DNA of 64,000 nt from positions 1-64,000 of the forward strand of contig NZ_JAIQWW010000009.1 in NCBI RefSeq assembly GCF_020164455.1. Direction: 5' to 3'. Below the pieces are notes generated by a model. The model was not told the origin of the DNA. It worked only from the letters and a program-made list of their open reading frames with translations, and made no database searches. This stretch comes from Phyllobacterium chamaecytisi. Its GTDB lineage: Bacteria; Pseudomonadota; Alphaproteobacteria; Rhizobiales; Rhizobiaceae. Below, in pieces: positions 4,878 to 11,930 of this stretch (position 1 is the stretch's first letter; each line of letters begins with the position of its first letter). The position numbers and the translations under genes are program-made.

Positions 4878-5530
4878 CTATGGCATGGGCTTCTTCTTCC
4901 TAAGAGGAGGCGACAGTGCCTTATGAATCTCGGTCAACCTGGCACAAAGCTCGTCAAAGGTAATGATAGTGACATAGGTGAATGAGCTGCGAAGGATCTC
5001 AAACGACTTTATTAGATGGATCTCTGTCGGCGATTTTCCGGCAATGACGATGCATTGCACAGCTTGCGCATGAAGGTCGTAGCGCCCGGACTCGTCTTTG
5101 AGGTCTGGCAGGTGGCTATGCAGCTTATTGCACTGATCTAAGATCTGGTAAACTGCGCCACTTGATTCTGCCGATGGATTGAAGACGTCGGTTCCGCGGC
5201 AGGGACTTTTGGCCAGAAGATCTTGCTTGGCTTCTTAATTTCAACTAGGGCGAGATTTTCTGTCGATGCAGTCGCCATCAGAAAGTCGGTGAATTTAATC
5301 CGATGACGCTTAGGGAAGCCAAAACGCTCATGGCAACATGGCTTGAAGCCGTAATCGCCTCAGTGCTCTTGAGGGAGTAATGCCCGGTATTCCGCTACAA
5401 CCAGAGGGCAAATACCGCATGCATACTCGCATAAGGGCGCAAGGACGCAAGGGCGCGGTCCGGAACTCCGTGCTCAAGTGTAGCGAACAGCCTTTTGATC
5501 GAGCCATTGTAGTCGTCGGTCGATCTCGAT
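4878..5530 (-). pseudogene. Shedu-type (SduA/DUF4263) anti-phage nuclease, decayed and truncated
   Basis: Reading the minus strand in three frames gives one continuous protein-like sequence. Segment A (about 5525-5398) reads YNGSIKRLFATLEHGVPDRA. Segment B (about 5401-5222) contains GDYGFKPCCHERFGFP, then FTDFLMAT and LVEIKKPSK, the D and E-x-K core of a PD-(D/E)XK nuclease as in DUF4263. Segment C (5222-4878) contains DVFNPSAESSGAVYQILDQC, QCIVIAGKSP and IITFDEL, then the stop. Frames change near 5400 and near 5222, and segment B has an in-frame TGA at 5362-5360. The product would be cut at least twice and lacks the usual N-terminal region. Shedu proteins are known single-gene phage-defence factors. 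Neighbouring conflict genes make this a plausible remnant of a defence island. Confidence 0.65.
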
Positions 5531-5610
5531 GGATGGGTCCGCGGTCGCCAACCGTGTCGCACGGCACTTAGTTATAAGAATGCATATCAATGATTTCAAT
5601 AGGTTAGGGC

Positions 5611-5710
5611 TGCAGTTAAATTGAGAATTAGCACTTTATTTGATAAGCAAACGTGATTTTCAGCAGTTAATTTGAGAATCCTTGCGCCTTCATTCTCAAA
5701 TTAAATGCAG
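5611..5710. repeat. Three copies of a TTAA(A/T)TTGAGAAT repeat, two direct and one inverted
   Basis: Near-identical units lie at 5611-5628 and 5661-5679 on the plus strand and at 5692-5710 in inverse orientation. Each reads roughly CAGTTAATTTGAGAAT. Multiple short subterminal repeats of this kind are typical of IS ends such as the IS21 type, so this may be a solo IS end left after deletion; that family assignment is inference. A 39-codon open frame follows from an ATG at 5707, but it has no recognised homologue and I do not call it a gene. The cluster separates the broken Shedu gene from the ubiquitin-like operon. Confidence 0.5.
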
Positions 5711-5802
5711 CAGTTGAGCGAAACCGGCCGCATTCTTACAGTAAAGGGCAATGCGAAAATTTACCGTTCGACGTTCCACGAGGGTGTGCTCGAGGACATT
5801 CT

Positions 5803-6699
5803 CTATAAAACTAGCGAAACGTAGTTCGATTCAAAAATCCGTTGATCGCTCTCAATAGCCAATCGTAAATGGCAGTATAGTGACCAATATTTTCGCCAAT
5901 TCGGGTCAGTCAGGGATAAATATTCGACATTTAATCCGATGGTTCGGGCGGCTTCCCAACCAATCATTTGGCCATGCGAGGGGTACCTGCCGATGTCCAT
6001 GAGATCGTGGGCGATCTTAGAAAAGTTTGCACCCCGTCGTTTAAGTAGATTCTCGGCGAATAAGCGGGCACGGTCTTTGACCGCATTGAACTTCCTAACC
6101 ATGGTGGGGTCGAATTTCTCGAAGGTGATGCGGTTTGCCGGATTCTCGGGTTCTTCCCTAAGATCCGCCTTCGCCGCGGCGTAGGCGTTCAAATAGTTTA
6201 ACACCGAATGGTTGGTGTCATGGCCGTTACCATCCTTTAGCGAGACTTGCGGATCGATGGGTCCCAGCTCCGAGGAATCACTCATCACGATCGTGTTAGC
6301 CCCCAACACCATTAGCGTGCCGGCGCTTTTGGCAAAATCTGGCACGATGATCCGGAGTTCCCCGTCCTCGCCCACCATACTCCGCAATAAGGTGATCAGC
6401 TTTTCAGCCGCATCGACATCTCCTCCCGGTGTATGTAGCATTAGATCGATCGGCTCGCCGGGGAGGACATTGTGCAGCATATCGACGAACCCGAGCGTGT
6501 CCATCCGGTCGACAGGTGCCCTGATACCCGCTACGTAACACAAAAGCTTCGGATTCGCGGTCTCGATATCGCGAATGAGAGTCTGCCGTTGATAGCGCGC
6601 GGCATTCATTGCCGTGAACATCGGCGTCTTCTCGATTGCGCGTGGCGGCTGCGGCATTACCGGCTGCGATTGGTTGTCGGCGCTCTTACTGTATGTCAT
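5803..6699 (-). CDS. Clp-fold serine proteinase (SDH/SppA-like, PF01972 family), last gene of the ubiquitin-like operon
   Basis: A 298-residue protein of the serine dehydrogenase proteinase family, which has the ClpP/SppA crotonase fold. Visible elements are the oxyanion segment HTPGGDVDAAEKL (about 89-101), the nucleophile in DFAKSAGT with Ser125, and SELGPIDPQ (143-151). A later SHGQMIGWEAARTIGL may supply further active-site residues. There is no signal peptide or membrane anchor, so it should act in the cytoplasm, unlike SppA. Its ATG overlaps the stop of the DUF6527 gene by four bases (ATGA), tying it to the Ubl cassette. Plausible roles are maturation of the Ubl C-terminus, removal of conjugates or degradation of tagged targets; all are inference. 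Family call is firm. Confidence 0.82.
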   Translation of the reverse strand: MTYSKSADNQSQPVMPQPPRAIEKTPMFTAMNAARYQRQTLIRDIETANPKLLCYVAGIRAPVDRMDTLGFVDMLHNVLPGEPIDLMLHTPGGDVDAAEKLITLLRSMVGEDGELRIIVPDFAKSAGTLMVLGANTIVMSDSSELGPIDPQVSLKDGNGHDTNHSVLNYLNAYAAAKADLREEPENPANRITFEKFDPTMVRKFNAVKDRARLFAENLLKRRGANFSKIAHDLMDIGRYPSHGQMIGWEAARTIGLNVEYLSLTDPNWRKYWSLYCHLRLAIESDQRIFESNYVSLVL

Positions 6700-7028
6700 C
6701 GATCACCTTTGGCCCAAAGGATTCGGCCACCTCGAATAAAATAGTGGCAGCGCTTATTACTGTCATGGAAATCTACACTGGGAGAGATAGTCAGACGCTT
6801 GGACGGTTGTAACGTCCAAAATGGGCGTCGACTCTCGTCGACGTTGAGCATGATCCGGTGACCATATCGGCAGGGACAGTCGAACACGATCCATTTGTTT
6901 CGACCGGACGCTGCGACGAGCGCAACGCCGTTGCGCGGCAGCCGATCCGGGATCTCGTCGGCCGACTCCGCCTCGCCGACAACGCGCCAGCGTTGAAATG
7001 GCAACCATTTCCACCATACAATCTTCAT
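6696..7028 (-). CDS. DUF6527 family protein, putative metal-binding partner in the ubiquitin-like system
   Basis: A 110-residue protein with a Cys/His pattern DCPCRYGHRIMLN, followed near the C-terminus by SVDFHDSNKRCHYFIRGGRI. This fits DUF6527, a family usually found beside multiubiquitin/E1/E2-like genes. The paired Cys-x-Cys-x3-His and Cys-His groups suggest a small zinc site. Its ATG at 7028 overlaps the E1 stop by four bases, and its stop overlaps the proteinase start in the same way. A longer frame to 7079 exists but lies inside the E1 gene. By position it could be an E3-like adaptor or substrate-recognition factor, which is inference. No catalytic motif is evident. Confidence 0.72.
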   Translation of the reverse strand: MKIVWWKWLPFQRWRVVGEAESADEIPDRLPRNGVALVAASGRNKWIVFDCPCRYGHRIMLNVDESRRPFWTLQPSKRLTISPSVDFHDSNKRCHYFIRGGRILWAKGDR

Positions 7029-8410
7029 GGTGTTGGCCAGAGCTGTCCGAGAAACGGCTCCTCCAACCCGGCACCCCATCTTCCCTGCGACGGGTGACAG
7101 TAATGGGTTTCGTGCGGCGTCGCCCGATTCGTCGAGATCTCGCGCTCGTGAAGACGCAGCAGGGTTTCGTTTGATCCGCCTGGCGGCCCATATCCGAGGA
7201 GCCGGTCGAGCAGTTCATTAACCGCGATCGCCGCAACTGCAGTCGTGAAGGCCACGACCGCCGGCTCGGTTTGACCCAGCGCCGGCGCATACCCTTCGTC
7301 GGCCAGCCGCTTGCGTTCTTCCGGGGTCTTCAACTCGGCCGAGGCCCGCCCCAAGTCAATCCGGTTGCGGCAAACGAGGCAGGCGCTGCCGGGGGAAAGC
7401 GCCGTCACTCGGCCATCGATCCCTTTCAGCATGCCCAAGGCGTCGCTACTGAGCAATACACCGACATCGATTATTGGAAGCAGAAAATAGGTCGAAAGGC
7501 GTGACAACACCAACCGCCCCGCATTATCGTCGGTGCAACCGAACACCAAGTCGCGCGCGGCAAGCGCTTGGGCAACCGGCTTCAGCGTAGCCATCCGACC
7601 GATGATCTGGCAATCAAGGTCGGGCGCGATGGCTTGCAAATGATCGCGCAACACCTCGATCTTAGGTCGACCAACGTCGCGTGGTGTCGAACCATAGACC
7701 CGCGTCACATTACTGGCCGACAGATCATCCGCATCGACTAACAACAGGTGACGAACACCCAGACGGACCAATTGCTCTGCGATGGCCGAGCCAGTCCCCC
7801 CTGCGCCCACAATAGCTACACGCAAATCGCCGAGGACGGTCTGGATATCAGCCCCAAACGCGCGCACATGGCGATCGAATATTGCATTGGGTGCAGATCG
7901 CGTCACCGAGTAGCTTGGCGTCAGCCGCCAGCGATCCCCGACTGTCCATATACGATCGATCGCCGAAACGCCGTCCTTTTCATGCTGAAGCGTACCGCTG
8001 AATATAAACCCGTCTCCGCGAGGCGAGGCGATCAACGTCCCGTAGTAGCCCGATCCGCTACGCAACTGGAAGAGATTAGCGATTTCCCGATCCACTTGCT
8101 CGTCATGGCGGCTCGGCATAGGCACGCTTCGGTCGCCGGGATGGGTATGAAACCAAATCGGCACTGCCCCATCTGATTCGGCGCGCCCTAGCGCGGGGAC
8201 ATAGCCGTCTGATCTAATCAACATATGTTGTGCCGACTGTTGAATGTAGGAGGCTGGATCTACCCAATGGATGCTTCTCGCCAGGAGCCGCACATCACCG
8301 CCGAGATCCGCTCGACGGGCGAGCAGGACGGCGGCAAATTCGAGCGGAAGTCGGGCATGATACTTGATTTCGTCAGCAATTTCGGACGGCATTACAAGGG
8401 TCGTGATCAT
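7025..8410 (-). CDS. JAB-family isopeptidase fused to ThiF/E1-like Ubl-activating enzyme
   Basis: A 461-residue two-domain protein. The N-terminal 150 residues are a JAB/MPN metalloprotease: a candidate Glu at residue 24, then His88-Thr-His90-Pro, Ser100 and Asp103, giving a JAMM pattern with nine residues between the second His and Ser. From about residue 200 a ThiF/MoeB/E1 adenylation domain follows, with VAIVGAGGTGSAIAEQLVRL, the acidic strand LLLVDADDL, ASNVTRVYG, GRPKIEVL and a CTDDNAGR stretch. A single C-x-x-C (ACLVC) lies late in the domain; the second pair usual in MoeB zinc sites is not evident. The ATG at 8410 overlaps the E2 gene by four bases. It should adenylate the Ubl from 8809-9090 and, through JAB, process or remove it. 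Confidence 0.85.
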   Translation of the reverse strand: MITTLVMPSEIADEIKYHARLPLEFAAVLLARRADLGGDVRLLARSIHWVDPASYIQQSAQHMLIRSDGYVPALGRAESDGAVPIWFHTHPGDRSVPMPSRHDEQVDREIANLFQLRSGSGYYGTLIASPRGDGFIFSGTLQHEKDGVSAIDRIWTVGDRWRLTPSYSVTRSAPNAIFDRHVRAFGADIQTVLGDLRVAIVGAGGTGSAIAEQLVRLGVRHLLLVDADDLSASNVTRVYGSTPRDVGRPKIEVLRDHLQAIAPDLDCQIIGRMATLKPVAQALAARDLVFGCTDDNAGRLVLSRLSTYFLLPIIDVGVLLSSDALGMLKGIDGRVTALSPGSACLVCRNRIDLGRASAELKTPEERKRLADEGYAPALGQTEPAVVAFTTAVAAIAVNELLDRLLGYGPPGGSNETLLRLHEREISTNRATPHETHYCHPSQGRWGAGLEEPFLGQLWPTP

Positions 8411-8796
8411 ACGACAAGCGCCCCTGCCGCGAGGTCGAGTTCCTTGCGAACAAGTGCGAGGTAGCTTTCGATCGAATCGACGCCGGCGCGCCACTGGCCT
8501 GGATTAAGGTGGCGCGACCAGCGTTGCCAAGTCCGCCCCAAATAGGCCTCATGTGCTTGTGTCGCTGCAATCGGTTGGCCATCCGCCCGCATAACCGCCG
8601 GATGAAACCACCACATGTCAGGCGGCACATCGGGATAGCCGGGCGACAGCCTCAGCAACAGATCGGCCTTGTCTTGAGTGAATCCCGATGACAGGCAGAA
8701 GTCTCGGATCGTAATGCAGATCATTCCGCCATCGACCGTGACAGTGTTACCCGGCGCACGTTCGTCAAGATGGCTTTGGTCAATCGACGGCAACAC
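8407..8796 (-). CDS. E2-like (UBC-fold) protein, prokaryotic E2 family E type
   Basis: A 129-residue protein whose core resembles prokaryotic E2-like proteins: strands around ICITIRDFCL and ADLLLRLSPGYPDVPPDMWW, then FHPAVMRADG, GRTWQRWSRH and a terminal helix near GVDSIESYLALVRKEL. Where classical E2 enzymes have the catalytic Cys shortly after the HP and DG turn, this protein has DGQPIAAT; the only cysteines are residues 27 and 34 in the strands. It may therefore lack thioester chemistry or use another residue such as Ser, Thr or Asp. The start is GTG at 8796 with AAGGA 8 bases upstream. The gene begins 12 bases after the Ubl stop and overlaps the E1-JAB gene by four bases. Fold assignment is by pattern recognition. 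Confidence 0.75.
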   Translation of the reverse strand: MLPSIDQSHLDERAPGNTVTVDGGMICITIRDFCLSSGFTQDKADLLLRLSPGYPDVPPDMWWFHPAVMRADGQPIAATQAHEAYLGRTWQRWSRHLNPGQWRAGVDSIESYLALVRKELDLAAGALVV

Positions 8797-8808
8797 TATC
8801 GGAATCCT

Positions 8809-9090
8809 TCAAACACGACCGGGGTTGATCTGAGCTGGCGCTGTAAAGAAACGCAAACCATTTCGCAGTTCAACTTTGGCGTCCGCCTCGATCTTGAGGT
8901 CGGAGCCGCTCGGCACAACTTCGAACAGGTCGCGATCGAGCCCGACATCAGGTTCGGGCAGTCTGCGCAGCTCCTCACCGGTTAATACCGACTGGGGAAC
9001 CTTGTAGGTTGTTCGATCAATCTTGATCTCGAAGGCCTTCGGCTTCTGGGGATCGCCGCGGTCGTCGTCCTTACGAAGAGAATCACTCAT
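8809..9090 (-). CDS. Single-domain multiubiquitin-family (PF14452-like) ubiquitin-like protein
   Basis: A 93-residue predicted ubiquitin-like modifier, first gene of the cassette. After a charged 17-residue leader comes a beta-grasp-like domain (about 18-83): KAFEIKIDRTTYKVPQSVLT, then GEELRRLP and KVELRNGLRFFTAP. Members of the family often carry several tandem copies; this one has a single copy. The tail after residue 83 is APAQINPGRV: a lone Gly91 followed by Arg-Val and no terminal Gly-Gly. A mature glycine end would need removal of two residues. I chose the ATG at 9090 because GGAGGT lies 4 bases upstream; a longer frame to 9162 would run through the promoter repeats. E2 and E1-JAB genes follow directly. 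Confidence 0.78.
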   Translation of the reverse strand: MSDSLRKDDDRGDPQKPKAFEIKIDRTTYKVPQSVLTGEELRRLPEPDVGLDRDLFEVVPSGSDLKIEADAKVELRNGLRFFTAPAQINPGRV

Positions 9091-9107
9091 TGCTACCTCC
9101 ATGATTT

Positions 9108-9143
9108 GATACCGTGATACCACAACACCACTTGGATTGACAA
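9108..9143 (-). promoter_or_regulatory. Putative promoter of the Ubl operon overlapped by a GATACC direct repeat
   Basis: On the minus strand TTGTCA (9143-9138) and TATCAC (9119-9114) are separated by 18 bases, about 25 bases before the Ubl start at 9090. Two GATACC copies (9108-9113 and 9116-9121, plus strand) overlap the -10 box. Paired short repeats like these suit a ribbon-helix-helix repressor, and one is encoded divergently from 9172. A plus-strand TTGACA at 9137-9142 could serve that gene. Function is inferred from sequence only. Confidence 0.4.
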
Positions 9144-9171
9144 GCACAAAGATTCGGTGCATTAAATTCTA

Positions 9172-9378
9172 ATGAAACAAGCTAAAGCCATGACAGTTCG
9201 CCTCTCGGAGGAGCAGGCTCAGGCGCTCGAAATGGTGGCGAGCGTCGAGAACCTACCGGTTTCCGACGTGATCCGCGCCGCGATTACGAAACACATCGAG
9301 ACCCGCCGCCGCGATCCTGGGTTTCAGGCTGGCCTGAAGGATCGCATCTCTCAGGCAAAAAAACTTCTCGACCGGTGA
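9172..9378 (+). CDS. Ribbon-helix-helix (CopG/Arc-type) DNA-binding protein
   Basis: A 68-residue protein with MTVRLSEEQAQALEMVASVE followed by SDVIRAAITKHIE, the strand-helix-helix pattern of CopG-type repressors. Such proteins are usually antitoxins or autoregulators. It starts divergently from the Ubl operon, 81 bases away, and lies 58 bases before a Fic antitoxin gene on the same strand. No RelE/ParE-like toxin adjoins it, so it may regulate the Ubl cassette, the Fic module or both. The start is uncertain: the ATG at 9172 lacks a clear ribosome site and lies very near the expected transcription start, and an in-frame ATG at 9190 begins exactly at the canonical MTVRLS strand. Confidence 0.7.
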   Translation: MKQAKAMTVRLSEEQAQALEMVASVENLPVSDVIRAAITKHIETRRRDPGFQAGLKDRISQAKKLLDR

Positions 9379-9436
9379 AGCATATGCGGGCTAAACTTCG
9401 ACCCGCTGACCGCGCCGAATTGAACTGTTAGGATAG

Positions 9437-9649
9437 ATGGACATGAAGAAGACCATAAAACGTGTCGTCGGAGCGAGCGATGGACATGTTCTTGGCGATC
9501 GCGCCTTTGCCGCCATAACAGCTGTTGAAGGCATTCGCCTGAGCGAAACGAGCCGCGAGCGGCTGGCCTCAATGAAGACGCGCAAGCTGACGGCCGAGGA
9601 ACAGCGAACGGAAGTCATTCGCGCCTACGTCGAGGCGAAATCGCGCTGA
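9437..9649 (+). CDS. Small Fic antitoxin (VbhA-like)
   Basis: A 70-residue helical protein whose TGA overlaps the ATG of the Fic gene (TGATG), the usual layout of class I Fic toxin-antitoxin pairs. The stretch FAAITAVEGIRLSE places Glu31-Gly32 where VbhA-type antitoxins carry the inhibitory glutamate that blocks ATP binding in the Fic active site. The Ser/Thr expected four residues before Glu is not in register here (Thr28 is three before). The C-terminal RKLTAEEQRTEVIRAYVEAK resembles other small Fic antitoxins. AGGA precedes the ATG at 9437; a second ATG at 9443 is also possible. Role: hold the toxin inactive until stress or invasion. Confidence 0.7.
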   Translation: MDMKKTIKRVVGASDGHVLGDRAFAAITAVEGIRLSETSRERLASMKTRKLTAEEQRTEVIRAYVEAKSR

Positions 9650-10233
9650 TGGTGTTCGAAGGTTACGACGCCTTCGACGATCCTTATTCTTACAAGGGGA
9701 CGACCACTCTCAAGAACAAACTCGGCCTCCGCGATCCTGGGCTGCTCGAATCCTTTGAACTCGAAATGACCGCTCTGCGAGCCAACGAGCCCCTGCCAGA
9801 GGGTAGGTTTGATGCCCGGCATTATTGCCGCGTCCATCATCATCTGTTTCAAGACATCTATACTTGGGCGGGGAAGTATCGAACTGTGCGCACCGCCAAG
9901 GGCGGCAATCTATTCTGCTTCCCAGAGCACATCAAATCGGCCATGGATCGTCTGTTTGTATCCTTGCGTGACAGTCGATGGCTAGAGGCAGAAGAAGCCG
10001 ATGTGTTCATAGAATCGGTCGCCACCTTTCTAGCAGAGCTCAACGCAATCCATCCTTTTCGGGAGGGCAATGGTCGTTCCCAACTGGCCTTCGTCGATTT
10101 GCTTGGCGAAAGAGCGCAATTCCCCTTCGACTTTTCGCGCGTGGAACGGGACTCATTCATGCCCGCGATGGTTGCAAGCTACCACGGTAACGTAAAACCG
10201 CTCATCGCCGAACTTACCCTGTTGCTAGCTTGA
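9649..10233 (+). CDS. Fic-family AMP transferase (toxin)
   Basis: A 194-residue Fic/DOC-fold protein that probably transfers AMP from ATP to a target protein; VbhT-like Fic toxins modify DNA gyrase and topoisomerase IV. The active-site loop HPFREGNGR is at residues 135-143, with catalytic His135, acidic Glu139 and the anion-binding GNGR. The Arg that usually follows three residues after GNGR is Leu here (GRSQL), a variant also met in other Fic proteins. The upstream flap region GKYRTVRTAKGGNLFCFPEH (76-95) fits the family. No N-terminal alpha inhibitory helix is present, in line with the separate antitoxin gene. Part of the same conflict-gene block as the Ubl operon. Confidence 0.85.
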   Translation: MVFEGYDAFDDPYSYKGTTTLKNKLGLRDPGLLESFELEMTALRANEPLPEGRFDARHYCRVHHHLFQDIYTWAGKYRTVRTAKGGNLFCFPEHIKSAMDRLFVSLRDSRWLEAEEADVFIESVATFLAELNAIHPFREGNGRSQLAFVDLLGERAQFPFDFSRVERDSFMPAMVASYHGNVKPLIAELTLLLA

Positions 10234-10919
10234 CGTTTGTGCAAGTCGTACGGTCTCTGCATGCCCCAAAGATTGTCTCATTCGATTTGGTTTGCGGACG
10301 CTCCTTTTTTGGCGTGGCTGTTGTCAACACCCACAACTATGGCACATCGACGCCGTCGAAGGAGCGTCCCACTCCATCAATCAACTACAGTGCGACAGCG
10401 CTGCCAGCATATGCTCGATCATGCGTAGGCCGAGCGGGAACCTAAAATTGAGCCAAACGGCGTGGGCAATCACTTCCGCTGGAAACCGGTGGCGACGATG
10501 GAGAGGTTCACGTGCAAATCTGGTCAGCACCCCCACATTCCACATTTTGATCGATGCTCCGATAAGGTCAAGGGGGTTGCCCAATCATCAGGGTCGCGAT
10601 GCAGAAATTCGGGTTGTGTGGGCTTGCGCAGTCCATGGCCCCGCAAGCTCGCCCCGAAGAACATTCATGTGGCCCACTTCATCATCGACGGCAAAACCGC
10701 TGCCAATGGCGCAAAGCAGGCAGTGTCGTCCGATCCGCCCGATCAGTTGCTATGCCCGGATGCTATGCCTGAGACCTATCTCTCGGTCCATCGACAACAT
10801 CGCAGTGCCTGGTCATGGGAAGTCGAATCCAGGCCGTGGGTCGAGACATTTTAAACATTAGACCCACTGACGAGATCTGGTGCGCGAGACCATCACCGAC
10901 AGCTTTCATTGACAGAAGC
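10234..10919. other. Gene-poor segment with IS remnants
   Basis: About 690 bases between the Fic gene and the oxygenase gene. The only recognisable piece is an IS6-type transposase fragment at about 10381-10530 on the minus strand. Other open frames on both strands read as low-complexity or frame shadows and have no family I know. The segment probably records insertion and decay at the edge of the defence-type block. Confidence 0.5.
10381..10530 (-). pseudogene. IS6-family transposase remnant (N-terminal part)
   Basis: On the minus strand the translation contains EPLHRRHRFPAEVIAHAVWL followed by FRFPLGLRMIEHMLAA. This is the N-terminal signature of rhizobial IS6-type transposases (zinc-finger-like/HTH region before the DDE domain). 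The frame ends shortly after at a stop and no DDE core follows, so only about 50 codons survive. No inverted repeats were identified. It is a dead fragment. Confidence 0.6.
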
Positions 10920-11930
10920 TCACAGCAAATCCGAATGGTGTCGCTGAGCCACATCTGGATGTGAACGCAATCGTCCCTTGAGATAGTTGCGGCCAACCTC
11001 GCGGAACAATGGATTTGTTGCATCAGCGTCGATACCACCGGTCTCGTCAGCCAATTTTTCTGGAAGGTCCAATAAGGGGACGTCGGCATTCAGGTCTGCA
11101 CCGAAGAAGAAGGCGACCGAAAGGCGGTCCTTACCGGATGGAGGCGTCACCACACGGTGCACAGTTGCCTTGAGATATCCATTGGACGCCAATTCCAGGA
11201 TTTCACCAATATTGATGATGAAAGTGCCCGGAACGGGGGTGGCGTCGATCCACCGACCATCTTTCTCAACCTGCAACCCCCCTTGGCTGCCTTGCAAGAG
11301 GAGTGTCAGAAATCCGCTGTCCTTGTGTGCGCCGACGCCCTGGTCGCTGCCAGCCGCCTCGCGGCCCGGGTATCGAATAACTTTCAAATGCTGGTTCGGG
11401 GCGTCTCGATAGATAGGAGCAAAGACATCCTTGTCCTGCCCCAACGCCAAGGCAAATGCTTGCAGAAGCTCGATCGCGATACGCGTCAGCTCGTTTTGCC
11501 ATTCGAGAAGGATGGGTTTGAAATCCGGCAAGGAGCCTGGCCACTGGTTTGGACCCTGCAAGCGCAACCATGGCTTGCCAACTGGAAGATGGGCTACAGC
11601 TTCCCGTTCCGCGCCGATATCGAACTGTTCCCGCCAGTCCGCCTGGCCTTTGGTCCGTTCCCAACCGGCACGGGTGTAGCCTCTAAAGTGCGGGGAGCGC
11701 ACCATCTCCACCGCGAGTTTATCCTTTTCAGGCAACGCGAAGAATCCTCGGGCGATTGTAACGATTTTCTCCTGAAGCGCGGAGGATACTCCGTGATTGC
11801 TCAGGTAGAAAAACCCGAATGTACGCGCAGCCGCCCGCAAATCCTCAAAGAAACCATTTTGCTTCTCCGGGTCGCGGAATCTCGAAAAGTCCAATGTCGG
11901 CAAGGTCGCCTTGGAAGAGTTGTGGTCCAC
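10920..11930 (-). CDS. Isopenicillin N synthase-like Fe(II)/2-oxoglutarate-dependent oxygenase
   Basis: A 336-residue cytoplasmic dioxygenase-fold protein. The iron ligands are visible as His202-x-Asp204 in GAHKDSGFLT and His258 in TVHRVVTPP, with the cosubstrate-binding Arg269-x-Ser in RLSVAFFFG. The N-terminal DIOX_N-type region with GFFYLSNHGV is also present. It lies 59 bases downstream of an oligopeptide-type substrate-binding protein gene on the same strand. The pair may import and oxidise one compound. In this sulfur-rich region a role in oxidative release of sulfite or in amino-acid modification is possible but not shown; the bacterial family has diverse substrates. Confidence 0.85.
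   Translation of the reverse strand: MDHNSSKATLPTLDFSRFRDPEKQNGFFEDLRAAARTFGFFYLSNHGVSSALQEKIVTIARGFFALPEKDKLAVEMVRSPHFRGYTRAGWERTKGQADWREQFDIGAEREAVAHLPVGKPWLRLQGPNQWPGSLPDFKPILLEWQNELTRIAIELLQAFALALGQDKDVFAPIYRDAPNQHLKVIRYPGREAAGSDQGVGAHKDSGFLTLLLQGSQGGLQVEKDGRWIDATPVPGTFIINIGEILELASNGYLKATVHRVVTPPSGKDRLSVAFFFGADLNADVPLLDLPEKLADETGGIDADATNPLFREVGRNYLKGRLRSHPDVAQRHHSDLL

Follow-up and report, generated by a model that had tools for sequence, protein, structure and literature searches.

What system do the five minus-strand genes near the start of contig NZ_JAIQWW010000009.1 of Phyllobacterium chamaecytisi encode, and where does it end? The window is the whole 64,000-nt stretch of this contig that was analysed, and coordinates are positions in it unless the contig or another locus is named. 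An earlier note on this DNA had read positions 5803-9090 as a complete ubiquitin-like (Ubl) conjugation cassette with a Clp-fold protease. The five genes lie where that note put them: the coordinates of the open reading frames (ORFs) all agree, and the sequence has a 12-base gap between the Ubl and E2 genes and ATGA overlaps at the other three junctions. The proposed extent did not stand, as divergent genes for a ribbon-helix-helix (RHH) protein, a 70-residue protein and a Fic protein (9172-10233) had been omitted. The eight genes together occupy 5803-10233 of a plasmid-like contig and probably represent a distinct branch of the bacterial ubiquitination-like (Bub) operons, in which Ubl tagging would proceed through a Ser oxyester, RHH would exert control and the Fic pair would act as a linked addiction or guard cassette. 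The features of the unit are as follows.

5803-6699, minus strand: SDH-type ClpP-like serine protease, 298 residues, Ser125/Asp149/His242 conserved (Pfam SDH_protease, conservation)
6696-7028, minus strand: DUF6527 protein, 110 residues, invariant Cys50, Ser83 and His94 in 109-residue numbering (Pfam, conservation, all-beta model)
7025-8410, minus strand: JAB (JAMM)-E1 fusion, BubCD-like, 461 residues (ThiF, Citrobacter BubCD, JAMM ligands)
8407-8796, minus strand: E2-like protein, BubB-like, 129 residues, Ser94/His96 of WQRWSRH invariant, conserved Cys absent (Prok-E2_E, Citrobacter BubB, conservation)
8809-9090, minus strand: Ubl, BubA-like, a single beta-grasp domain of 93 residues with the tail ...FFTAPAQINPG-RV (Multi_ubiq, model, Foldseek)
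9107-9130, minus-strand reading: tandem octads TGGTGTTG-TGGTATCA-CGGTATCA, probable RHH operator between the divergent starts (motif search, enrichment)
9172-9378, plus strand: RHH (CopG-type) protein, divergent from Ubl (Pfam DUF6290, RHH_1)
9437-9649, plus strand: 70-residue protein, putative Fic antitoxin (position before Fic, invariant E31-G32)
9649-10233, plus strand: Fic protein, motif HPFREGNGRSQL (Pfam Fic, VbhT profile match, PADLOC)

The Bub core and its active sites

The proposed cassette of Ubl, E2, JAB-E1 and DUF6527 proteins with a ClpP-fold (SDH) protease was recovered by family matches and by the same gene order in other genomes. Pfam matches above the curated cut-offs were obtained for Multi_ubiq (1.4e-8), Prok-E2_E (8.6e-35), ThiF (2.6e-36), DUF6527 (8.3e-19) and SDH_protease (3.6e-15); Prok-JAB fell short, with 22.2 against the required 25 bits. 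Despite this score, the JAMM ligands claimed in the earlier note are invariant over 92 aligned relatives (E24 in 91/91, with one gap; H88, H90, S100 and D103 in 92/92).

In sequence searches of solved structures, the JAB-E1 protein matched Citrobacter BubCD (6e-26) and the 129-residue protein matched Citrobacter BubB (2e-12), a solved E2-like protein, in keeping with its proposed E2-like nature; the Ubl found no match in such a search. A Ubl model built from 49 aligned sequences (pLDDT 86.9) had as its best Foldseek match in the PDB a Citrobacter multi-ubiquitin filament (9d59, E 3.3e-5), and also matched BubA in the BubCD complex (9ea8_B, E 0.017, TMt 0.77). The beta-grasp assignment of the Ubl was thus upheld, the best PDB matches of its model being bacterial multi-ubiquitin proteins. 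Homologues of BubA, BubB and BubCD are all present in one operon. Because of the BubB and BubCD sequence matches, the BubA-type fold match and the layout of operon 6e of Iyer, Burroughs and Aravind 2006 (PMC1779556), the system is a Bub operon. The operon 6e passage of that paper already predicts the core layout, namely PolyUbl, E2/RWD-like, JAB-E1 and a metal-binding protein (sll6052 is named there), and a Ubl, an inactive-looking E2/RWD, a JAB-E1 fusion and a metal-binding protein are all found here. The words ClpP, serine protease and Fic are absent from the operon 6e text itself (PMC1779556), whereas SDH and Fic are present here. With solved relatives and a layout predicted in 2006, the core can no longer be called under-described, as the earlier note had it.

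Bub operons are reportedly the subject of Ye et al. 2026 (NSMB 33:71) and Gong et al. 2025 (Structure 33:1016). Those operons reportedly share with the present unit a Ubl, a Cys-less E2, a JAB-E1 fusion and a DUF6527 gene, whereas the unit here has an extra SDH protease, a Fic pair and a single-domain Ubl. The 2026 Bub abstract reportedly describes oxyester intermediates for both E1 and E2, and proteases of a new family that use a Ser-His dyad. A Cys-less E2 with invariant Ser and His is present here at the level of sequence: in alignments of 91-93 E2s every Cys column stays below 85% conservation, and the invariant set consists of Q91, S94, R95 and H96 of WQRWSRH (91/91). The E1 and E2 of Bil (bacterial ISG15-like) systems are Cys-based, and kinship with Bil, which the earlier note had mentioned for phage protection, was rejected because no E2 Cys is conserved. 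A Cys domain is described for the Bil E1 in the relevant part of PMC11354881.

Within the E1, a metal site is suggested by C344, C347, H/C436 and C438. At position 436, His is found in 47/47 rows with SDH and Cys in 37/45 rows without it. The DUF6527 query used for searches and models covered 6696-7025, that is 109 residues without the start Met, and one is added to convert to full-protein numbering. Residues C50, P51, P82, S83 and H94 are found in 94/94 relatives and C52 in 81/94. The DUF6527 model is all-beta and confident (pLDDT 85.8), and a known fold was rejected because the model had no match in the PDB (best E 0.82). S83 and H94 would fit the identity of DUF6527 with the reported Ser-His dyad protease family. 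The triad of the SDH protease is conserved among aligned relatives (S125 and D149 in 50/50, H242 in 46/46).

Linkage of SDH, RHH and Fic to the Bub core

The contig is plasmid-like, as it carries a RepC gene at contig position 197087; RepC matches number four in the genome as a whole. When window positions 5000-11000 were compared with plasmids by blastn, matches were found in Methylocystis bryophila (5813-10170), Rhizobium sp. CCGE531 (5796-10215) and M. iwaonis (5816-10215). All three extend from SDH through to Fic, and the annotations on either side differ from plasmid to plasmid; the five-gene call is therefore half of an eight-gene unit. SDH, RHH and the Fic pair move together with the Bub operon between plasmids.

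A genome-contig scan with the JAB-E1 of five close loci gave 197 relatives. The 80 best serve here as scan loci, so that the frequencies given are those of these 80 and not of all Bub operons. Loci were mapped with a profile for each of the eight proteins after four rounds of iteration, and two copies of the window (L001, L095) were excluded before counting. SDH, RHH and Fic occur together in 19 of the scan loci, SDH and RHH only in 23 and SDH only in 2; none of the three is found in 35, and L090 has a Fic piece only. RHH is thus present in 42/80 loci, always with SDH, and 36 loci have neither SDH nor RHH. The five-gene order, whose recurrence the earlier note had made a test of its reading, is found under a strict contiguity rule in at least 32/80 genome loci and at least 4/13 plasmid regions, which are lower bounds because the rule misses loci whose Ubl profile match covers only a section of a longer ORF.

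An E1 tree of 92 rows, from which L006, L051, L058 and L090 were left out as too short, requires 5 changes for SDH, 7 for RHH and 4 for Fic. On it SDH and RHH mark one large 53-row branch with some losses, and Fic is confined to part of it, a 27-row branch (support 89) in which not all rows have Fic. Record titles of the Fic form name Pseudomonadota and Acidobacteriota, and those of the SDH and RHH form also Actinomycetota, Chloroflexota and Spirochaetota; many are metagenome-assembled bins. For the plasmid Bub operons L010, L012 and L013, which come from Synechocystis, Bradyrhizobium and Celeribacter, the profiles mapped neither SDH nor RHH.

The RHH protein matched DUF6290 (3.3e-7) and, just under its cut-off, RHH_1 (8e-4). 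RHH proteins use tandem direct repeats. The repeat unit found beside RHH is an 8-bp octad, TGGTATCA, in tandem. In the 130 bp before RHH of 48 loci (the 42 scan loci, 5 plasmid regions and the window), 91 exact GGTATC/GATACC cores were counted; dinucleotide shuffles give an expectation of 2.6, and the core density of these loci one of about 3. At least one core is present in 46/48 loci and at least two direct copies in 28; the gaps between direct cores (n=35) are 8 bp in 31 cases and 16 bp in 4. The 43 loci without RHH have two cores around the Ubl ORF start. In the window, TGGTATCA-CGGTATCA was located at 9107-9122 by search and a third, degenerate octad at 9123-9130 by eye. These tandem direct repeats in the divergent region are what would be expected of an RHH-controlled promoter, and form a putative operator. 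The omega-epsilon-zeta plasmid system comprises an RHH regulator, an antitoxin and a toxin, with tandem 7-bp repeats at the promoter. The present unit resembles it in the order of RHH, then antitoxin-like and then toxin-like gene and in the tandem short promoter repeats, and differs in having another toxin, 8-bp rather than 7-bp repeats and a divergent Ubl operon.

The Fic protein matched Pfam Fic (2.2e-17) and PADLOC PDC-S04 (6e-66), and a profile comparison gave VbhT as its best solved match (8.2e-38). The last base of the gene for the 70-residue protein overlaps the Fic start, and a small gene directly before the Fic gene recalls the VbhA-VbhT pair. Compared with that pair, the Fic here is short and lacks the second Arg of the motif, and the 70-residue protein matches no named antitoxin family. 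Fic antitoxins have a conserved Glu-Gly helix motif. In 14 aligned copies of the 70-residue protein, E31-G32 is found in 14/14, with Ser/Thr at -3 and not at -4 as in that motif.

Fic adjoins RHH in 19/19 scan loci that have both, in two orientations, these being 19 of the 42 loci with SDH and RHH. The codirectional RHH-Fic form is one clade (10 rows, 96/96). The Bub-linked Fics of the window's type (19 rows) likewise group as a single clade, with support 100/98.9, when set against 19 Fics of other origin in a tree from which the broken Fics (L016, L022) and the sphingomonad Fics were left out. Three sphingomonad loci (L023, L026, L029) have instead a distant 306-residue Fic with the usual Arg beside RHH. 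These were considered as antitoxin-Fic fusions; the idea was rejected, since a separate ORF of 67 or 64 residues precedes Fic in the two loci displayed. Distances between E1 proteins agree with those between Fics (r 0.90; 17 loci, 0/999 permutations as high), between the 70-residue proteins (r 0.94) and between RHH proteins (r 0.92), in a comparison without the near-copies L021 and L027, without L090, L016 and L022 (the last two with broken Fics) and without the three sphingomonad Fics. Plasmid Fics of at least 60% identity come from six records only, the same six as the closest E1.

Searches of the open-licence literature without preprints (including PMC13373217 and PMC12687455, the primary Bub papers lying outside it) turned up no paper that links Fic or RHH to Bub. 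The Bub core is thus already known, and the additions of this branch (SDH, RHH with octads, Fic) were not found in the papers that could be searched.

Proposed working and competing explanations

We propose that the Ubl tail is trimmed to ...INPG, that the E1 half of JAB-E1 would adenylate the Ubl and that the Cys-less E2 would accept it as an oxyester on Ser94 of WQRWSRH and transfer it to its protein targets. Precursor trimming, tag removal or both would fall to the JAMM domain, DUF6527 and SDH. RHH would bind the tandem TGGTATCA octads between the divergent promoters and repress the Ubl operon until a signal lifts it, and in the orientation of the window it would also repress its own operon of RHH, 70-residue protein and Fic. 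The Fic pair would be a toxin-antitoxin cassette acquired by the lineage and kept most likely because the unit becomes hard to lose; it is most likely a linked addiction or guard cassette.

Several observations weigh against this proposal. The usual Fic motif is HPFx[D/E]GNGRxxR, and the motif here, HPFREGNGRSQL, lacks the second Arg and so differs from the AMPylating motif of VbhT type. The last motif Arg is replaced by Leu (by Met in one) in 19 of 25 Fic ORFs, that is in those of the window's type with a readable motif; the remainder are the 3 sphingomonad Fics with Arg and 3 without a readable motif. Because four plasmid relatives without Bub also have Leu at this position, the whole Fic subfamily may have altered activity. 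The 70-residue protein had no Pfam match at E 1, no convincing PDB match and no named antitoxin family; with the missing motif Arg, this makes the activity of Fic and its neutralisation uncertain. Fic is absent from 23/42 loci with SDH and RHH. The regions in which octads were counted are also those from which the motif had been chosen by eye, and a promoter scan of 8900-9300 found no consensus promoter. Extensions of the Ubl tail are seen in loci with SDH as well as in loci that lack it, and L058, which has SDH, shows none; SDH is therefore not simply a tail trimmer, and an obligatory trimming role was rejected. A general toxin slot beside RHH in Fic-less loci was also rejected, other toxins there (Zeta, Abi_2 and RES, 3/20) being not clearly above the control side (PIN, 1/20). 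Finally, stabilisation of a multiubiquitin cassette by a toxin-antitoxin locus of another kind has been proposed before: the portion of PMC4963859 that treats Synechocystis pSYSX places the slr6057-slr6056 toxin-antitoxin locus beside the multiubiquitin cassette, proposes that it stabilises the cassette and says that 70% of PF14452 proteins adjoin such loci. The likeness lies in a toxin-antitoxin-like pair adjoining a Bub-type cassette; the pSYSX pair is HTH-Xre with COG2856/DUF955 (PMC4963859) and not Fic, and the unit here also has RHH and SDH.

Could the Fic pair lie beside the operon by chance, plasmids carrying many toxin-antitoxin pairs? Fic-related plasmid records of lower identity number 1992, and the four neighbourhoods viewed have no Bub gene, as this explanation would have it. 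It is already disfavoured, and we give it hardly any credence, given linkage across phyla, the one Bub-linked clade and the agreeing distances. Among 397 genomes of the order, E1 (1e-25) was found in 15 and Fic (1e-35) in 16, with both only in the window's genome, a caveat being that the Bub branch itself is rare in this sample; among 398 genomes of the phylum, the Fic profile at 1e-60 was found in 3, the window's and two already seen without E1. Each sample is a single draw. A closer tie is conceivable, with Fic as an effector wired to Bub: Ubl tagging or SDH cleavage would control the antitoxin or Fic, and an activated or blocked Bub system would free Fic. A Bub-only Fic clade maintained beside RHH in two orientations, the occupation of this place by a second, distant Fic in three sphingomonad loci, the tracking of E1 by the Fic and 70-residue proteins and the divergent control region common to both operons all speak for such wiring. 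It is nevertheless rather unlikely, since a single linked uptake followed by co-transfer accounts for most of the linkage, the Fic-less SDH and RHH loci do without it, and there is no direct evidence of contact between the Bub and Fic halves. We also regard as rather doubtful the specific idea that the branch guards itself with Fic, so that lost or inhibited conjugation (for example by a phage deconjugase) or SDH cleavage would free Fic and stop growth, RHH coupling both.

Two further alternatives concern the enzymes of the core. The earlier note leaned towards an SDH protease that degrades Ubl-tagged proteins as a small proteasome-like arm, and its ClpP-type fold by Pfam, its conserved triad and its presence in addition to the JAMM domain and DUF6527 are consistent with this. 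There is, however, no unfoldase gene within the unit, and the closest solved relatives that carry a name are NfeD/1510-N proteases, which cut site-specifically (E 7e-4); this makes degradation unlikely. The E2-like protein might instead be an inactive, RWD-like Ubl binder, with E1 conjugating directly. The absence of a conserved Cys agrees with this, as does the inactive reading in the operon 6e proposal of Iyer 2006 (PMC1779556). Ser94 and His96 are invariant in 91/91 relatives and look catalytic, which leaves an inactive E2 very improbable. The 2026 Bub abstract also reportedly has E1 and E2 working through oxyesters.

If Fic were indeed wired to Bub, two protein-modifying systems would be joined in one switch. 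In a 2026 paper (PMC13373217), 544 Bub operons are counted, 219 beside CapW or CapH+CapP and 59 beside CapK+CapS, and phage protection is stated as not demonstrated. The enzymes of Bub operons are known; any defensive role of the present branch would be putative. This branch offers concrete experimental handles in its likely repressor, its second serine protease, the Fic cassette bound to it and a precise putative operator: the operator sequence marks where to switch the unit on, and a toxin requiring neutralisation would give a simple growth readout of crosstalk between the Ubl pathway and the toxin.

Surroundings, phage relatives and other loci

The earlier note had placed the cassette in a defence-type block, which was not confirmed. 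Viewed by eye, the flanking ORFs over 1-16 kb resemble transporter and metabolic genes, PADLOC being the sole family search made there. For 43 flanking window proteins at 1e-10, PADLOC returned mad3 for 4 members (best 2.7e-52), mad8 for 2, AriA for 2 and ATPase-Toprim for 1, which we read as probable ABC-type ATPase matches.

Just past the SDH stop, at 5612-5708, GCAGTTAATTTGAGAAT occurs three times in near-identical form, twice in direct and once in inverted orientation (0.11 expected in the window). Similar sequence lies at unannotated sites on plasmids of Phyllobacterium, Mesorhizobium and others. Past the Fic gene, at about 10396-10588, is a dispersed repeat of about 170 bases, of which a single rhizobial plasmid can hold as many as 8 copies. 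Plasmid repeats seem to enclose the unit. Carriage by IMG/VR viruses was rejected, as none of 47 pattern matches there was a relative.

The SDH protein matched PHROG 11747 (2.1e-41), and relatives were found in seven phage records (BK068108-BK068112, MZ568827, MW601219), five of them from Porphyromonas phages and one each from a Shewanella and a Gordonia phage. Among small phage proteins in BFVD, predicted folds like DUF6527 were A0A8E7FZU2 (TMt 0.78, E 8.3e-4) and A0A7S5UXZ9 (TMt 0.72, E 2.3e-3), which are possible phage deconjugases or decoys by their models. Follow-up of the DUF6527-like models by tblastn of phages gave none, none and one match at 7e-3.

Genes in pieces were seen for E1 in L006, L058, L090 and G409 (L102/L115), for Fic in L016 and L022 and for SDH in L016 and L006. 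The IncHI2A plasmid of Salmonella enterica (L139), the one enterobacterial plasmid operon viewed, has neither SDH nor RHH annotated; it has a multiubiquitin protein, ThiF and DUF6527, with a winged-HTH gene upstream. In L042 a weak TIR match was given by PADLOC only. The toxin-like genes beside RHH in Fic-less loci are Zeta in L047 (5898-6632), Abi_2/AbiD in L055 (5564-6700) and RES in L058 (6392-6997).

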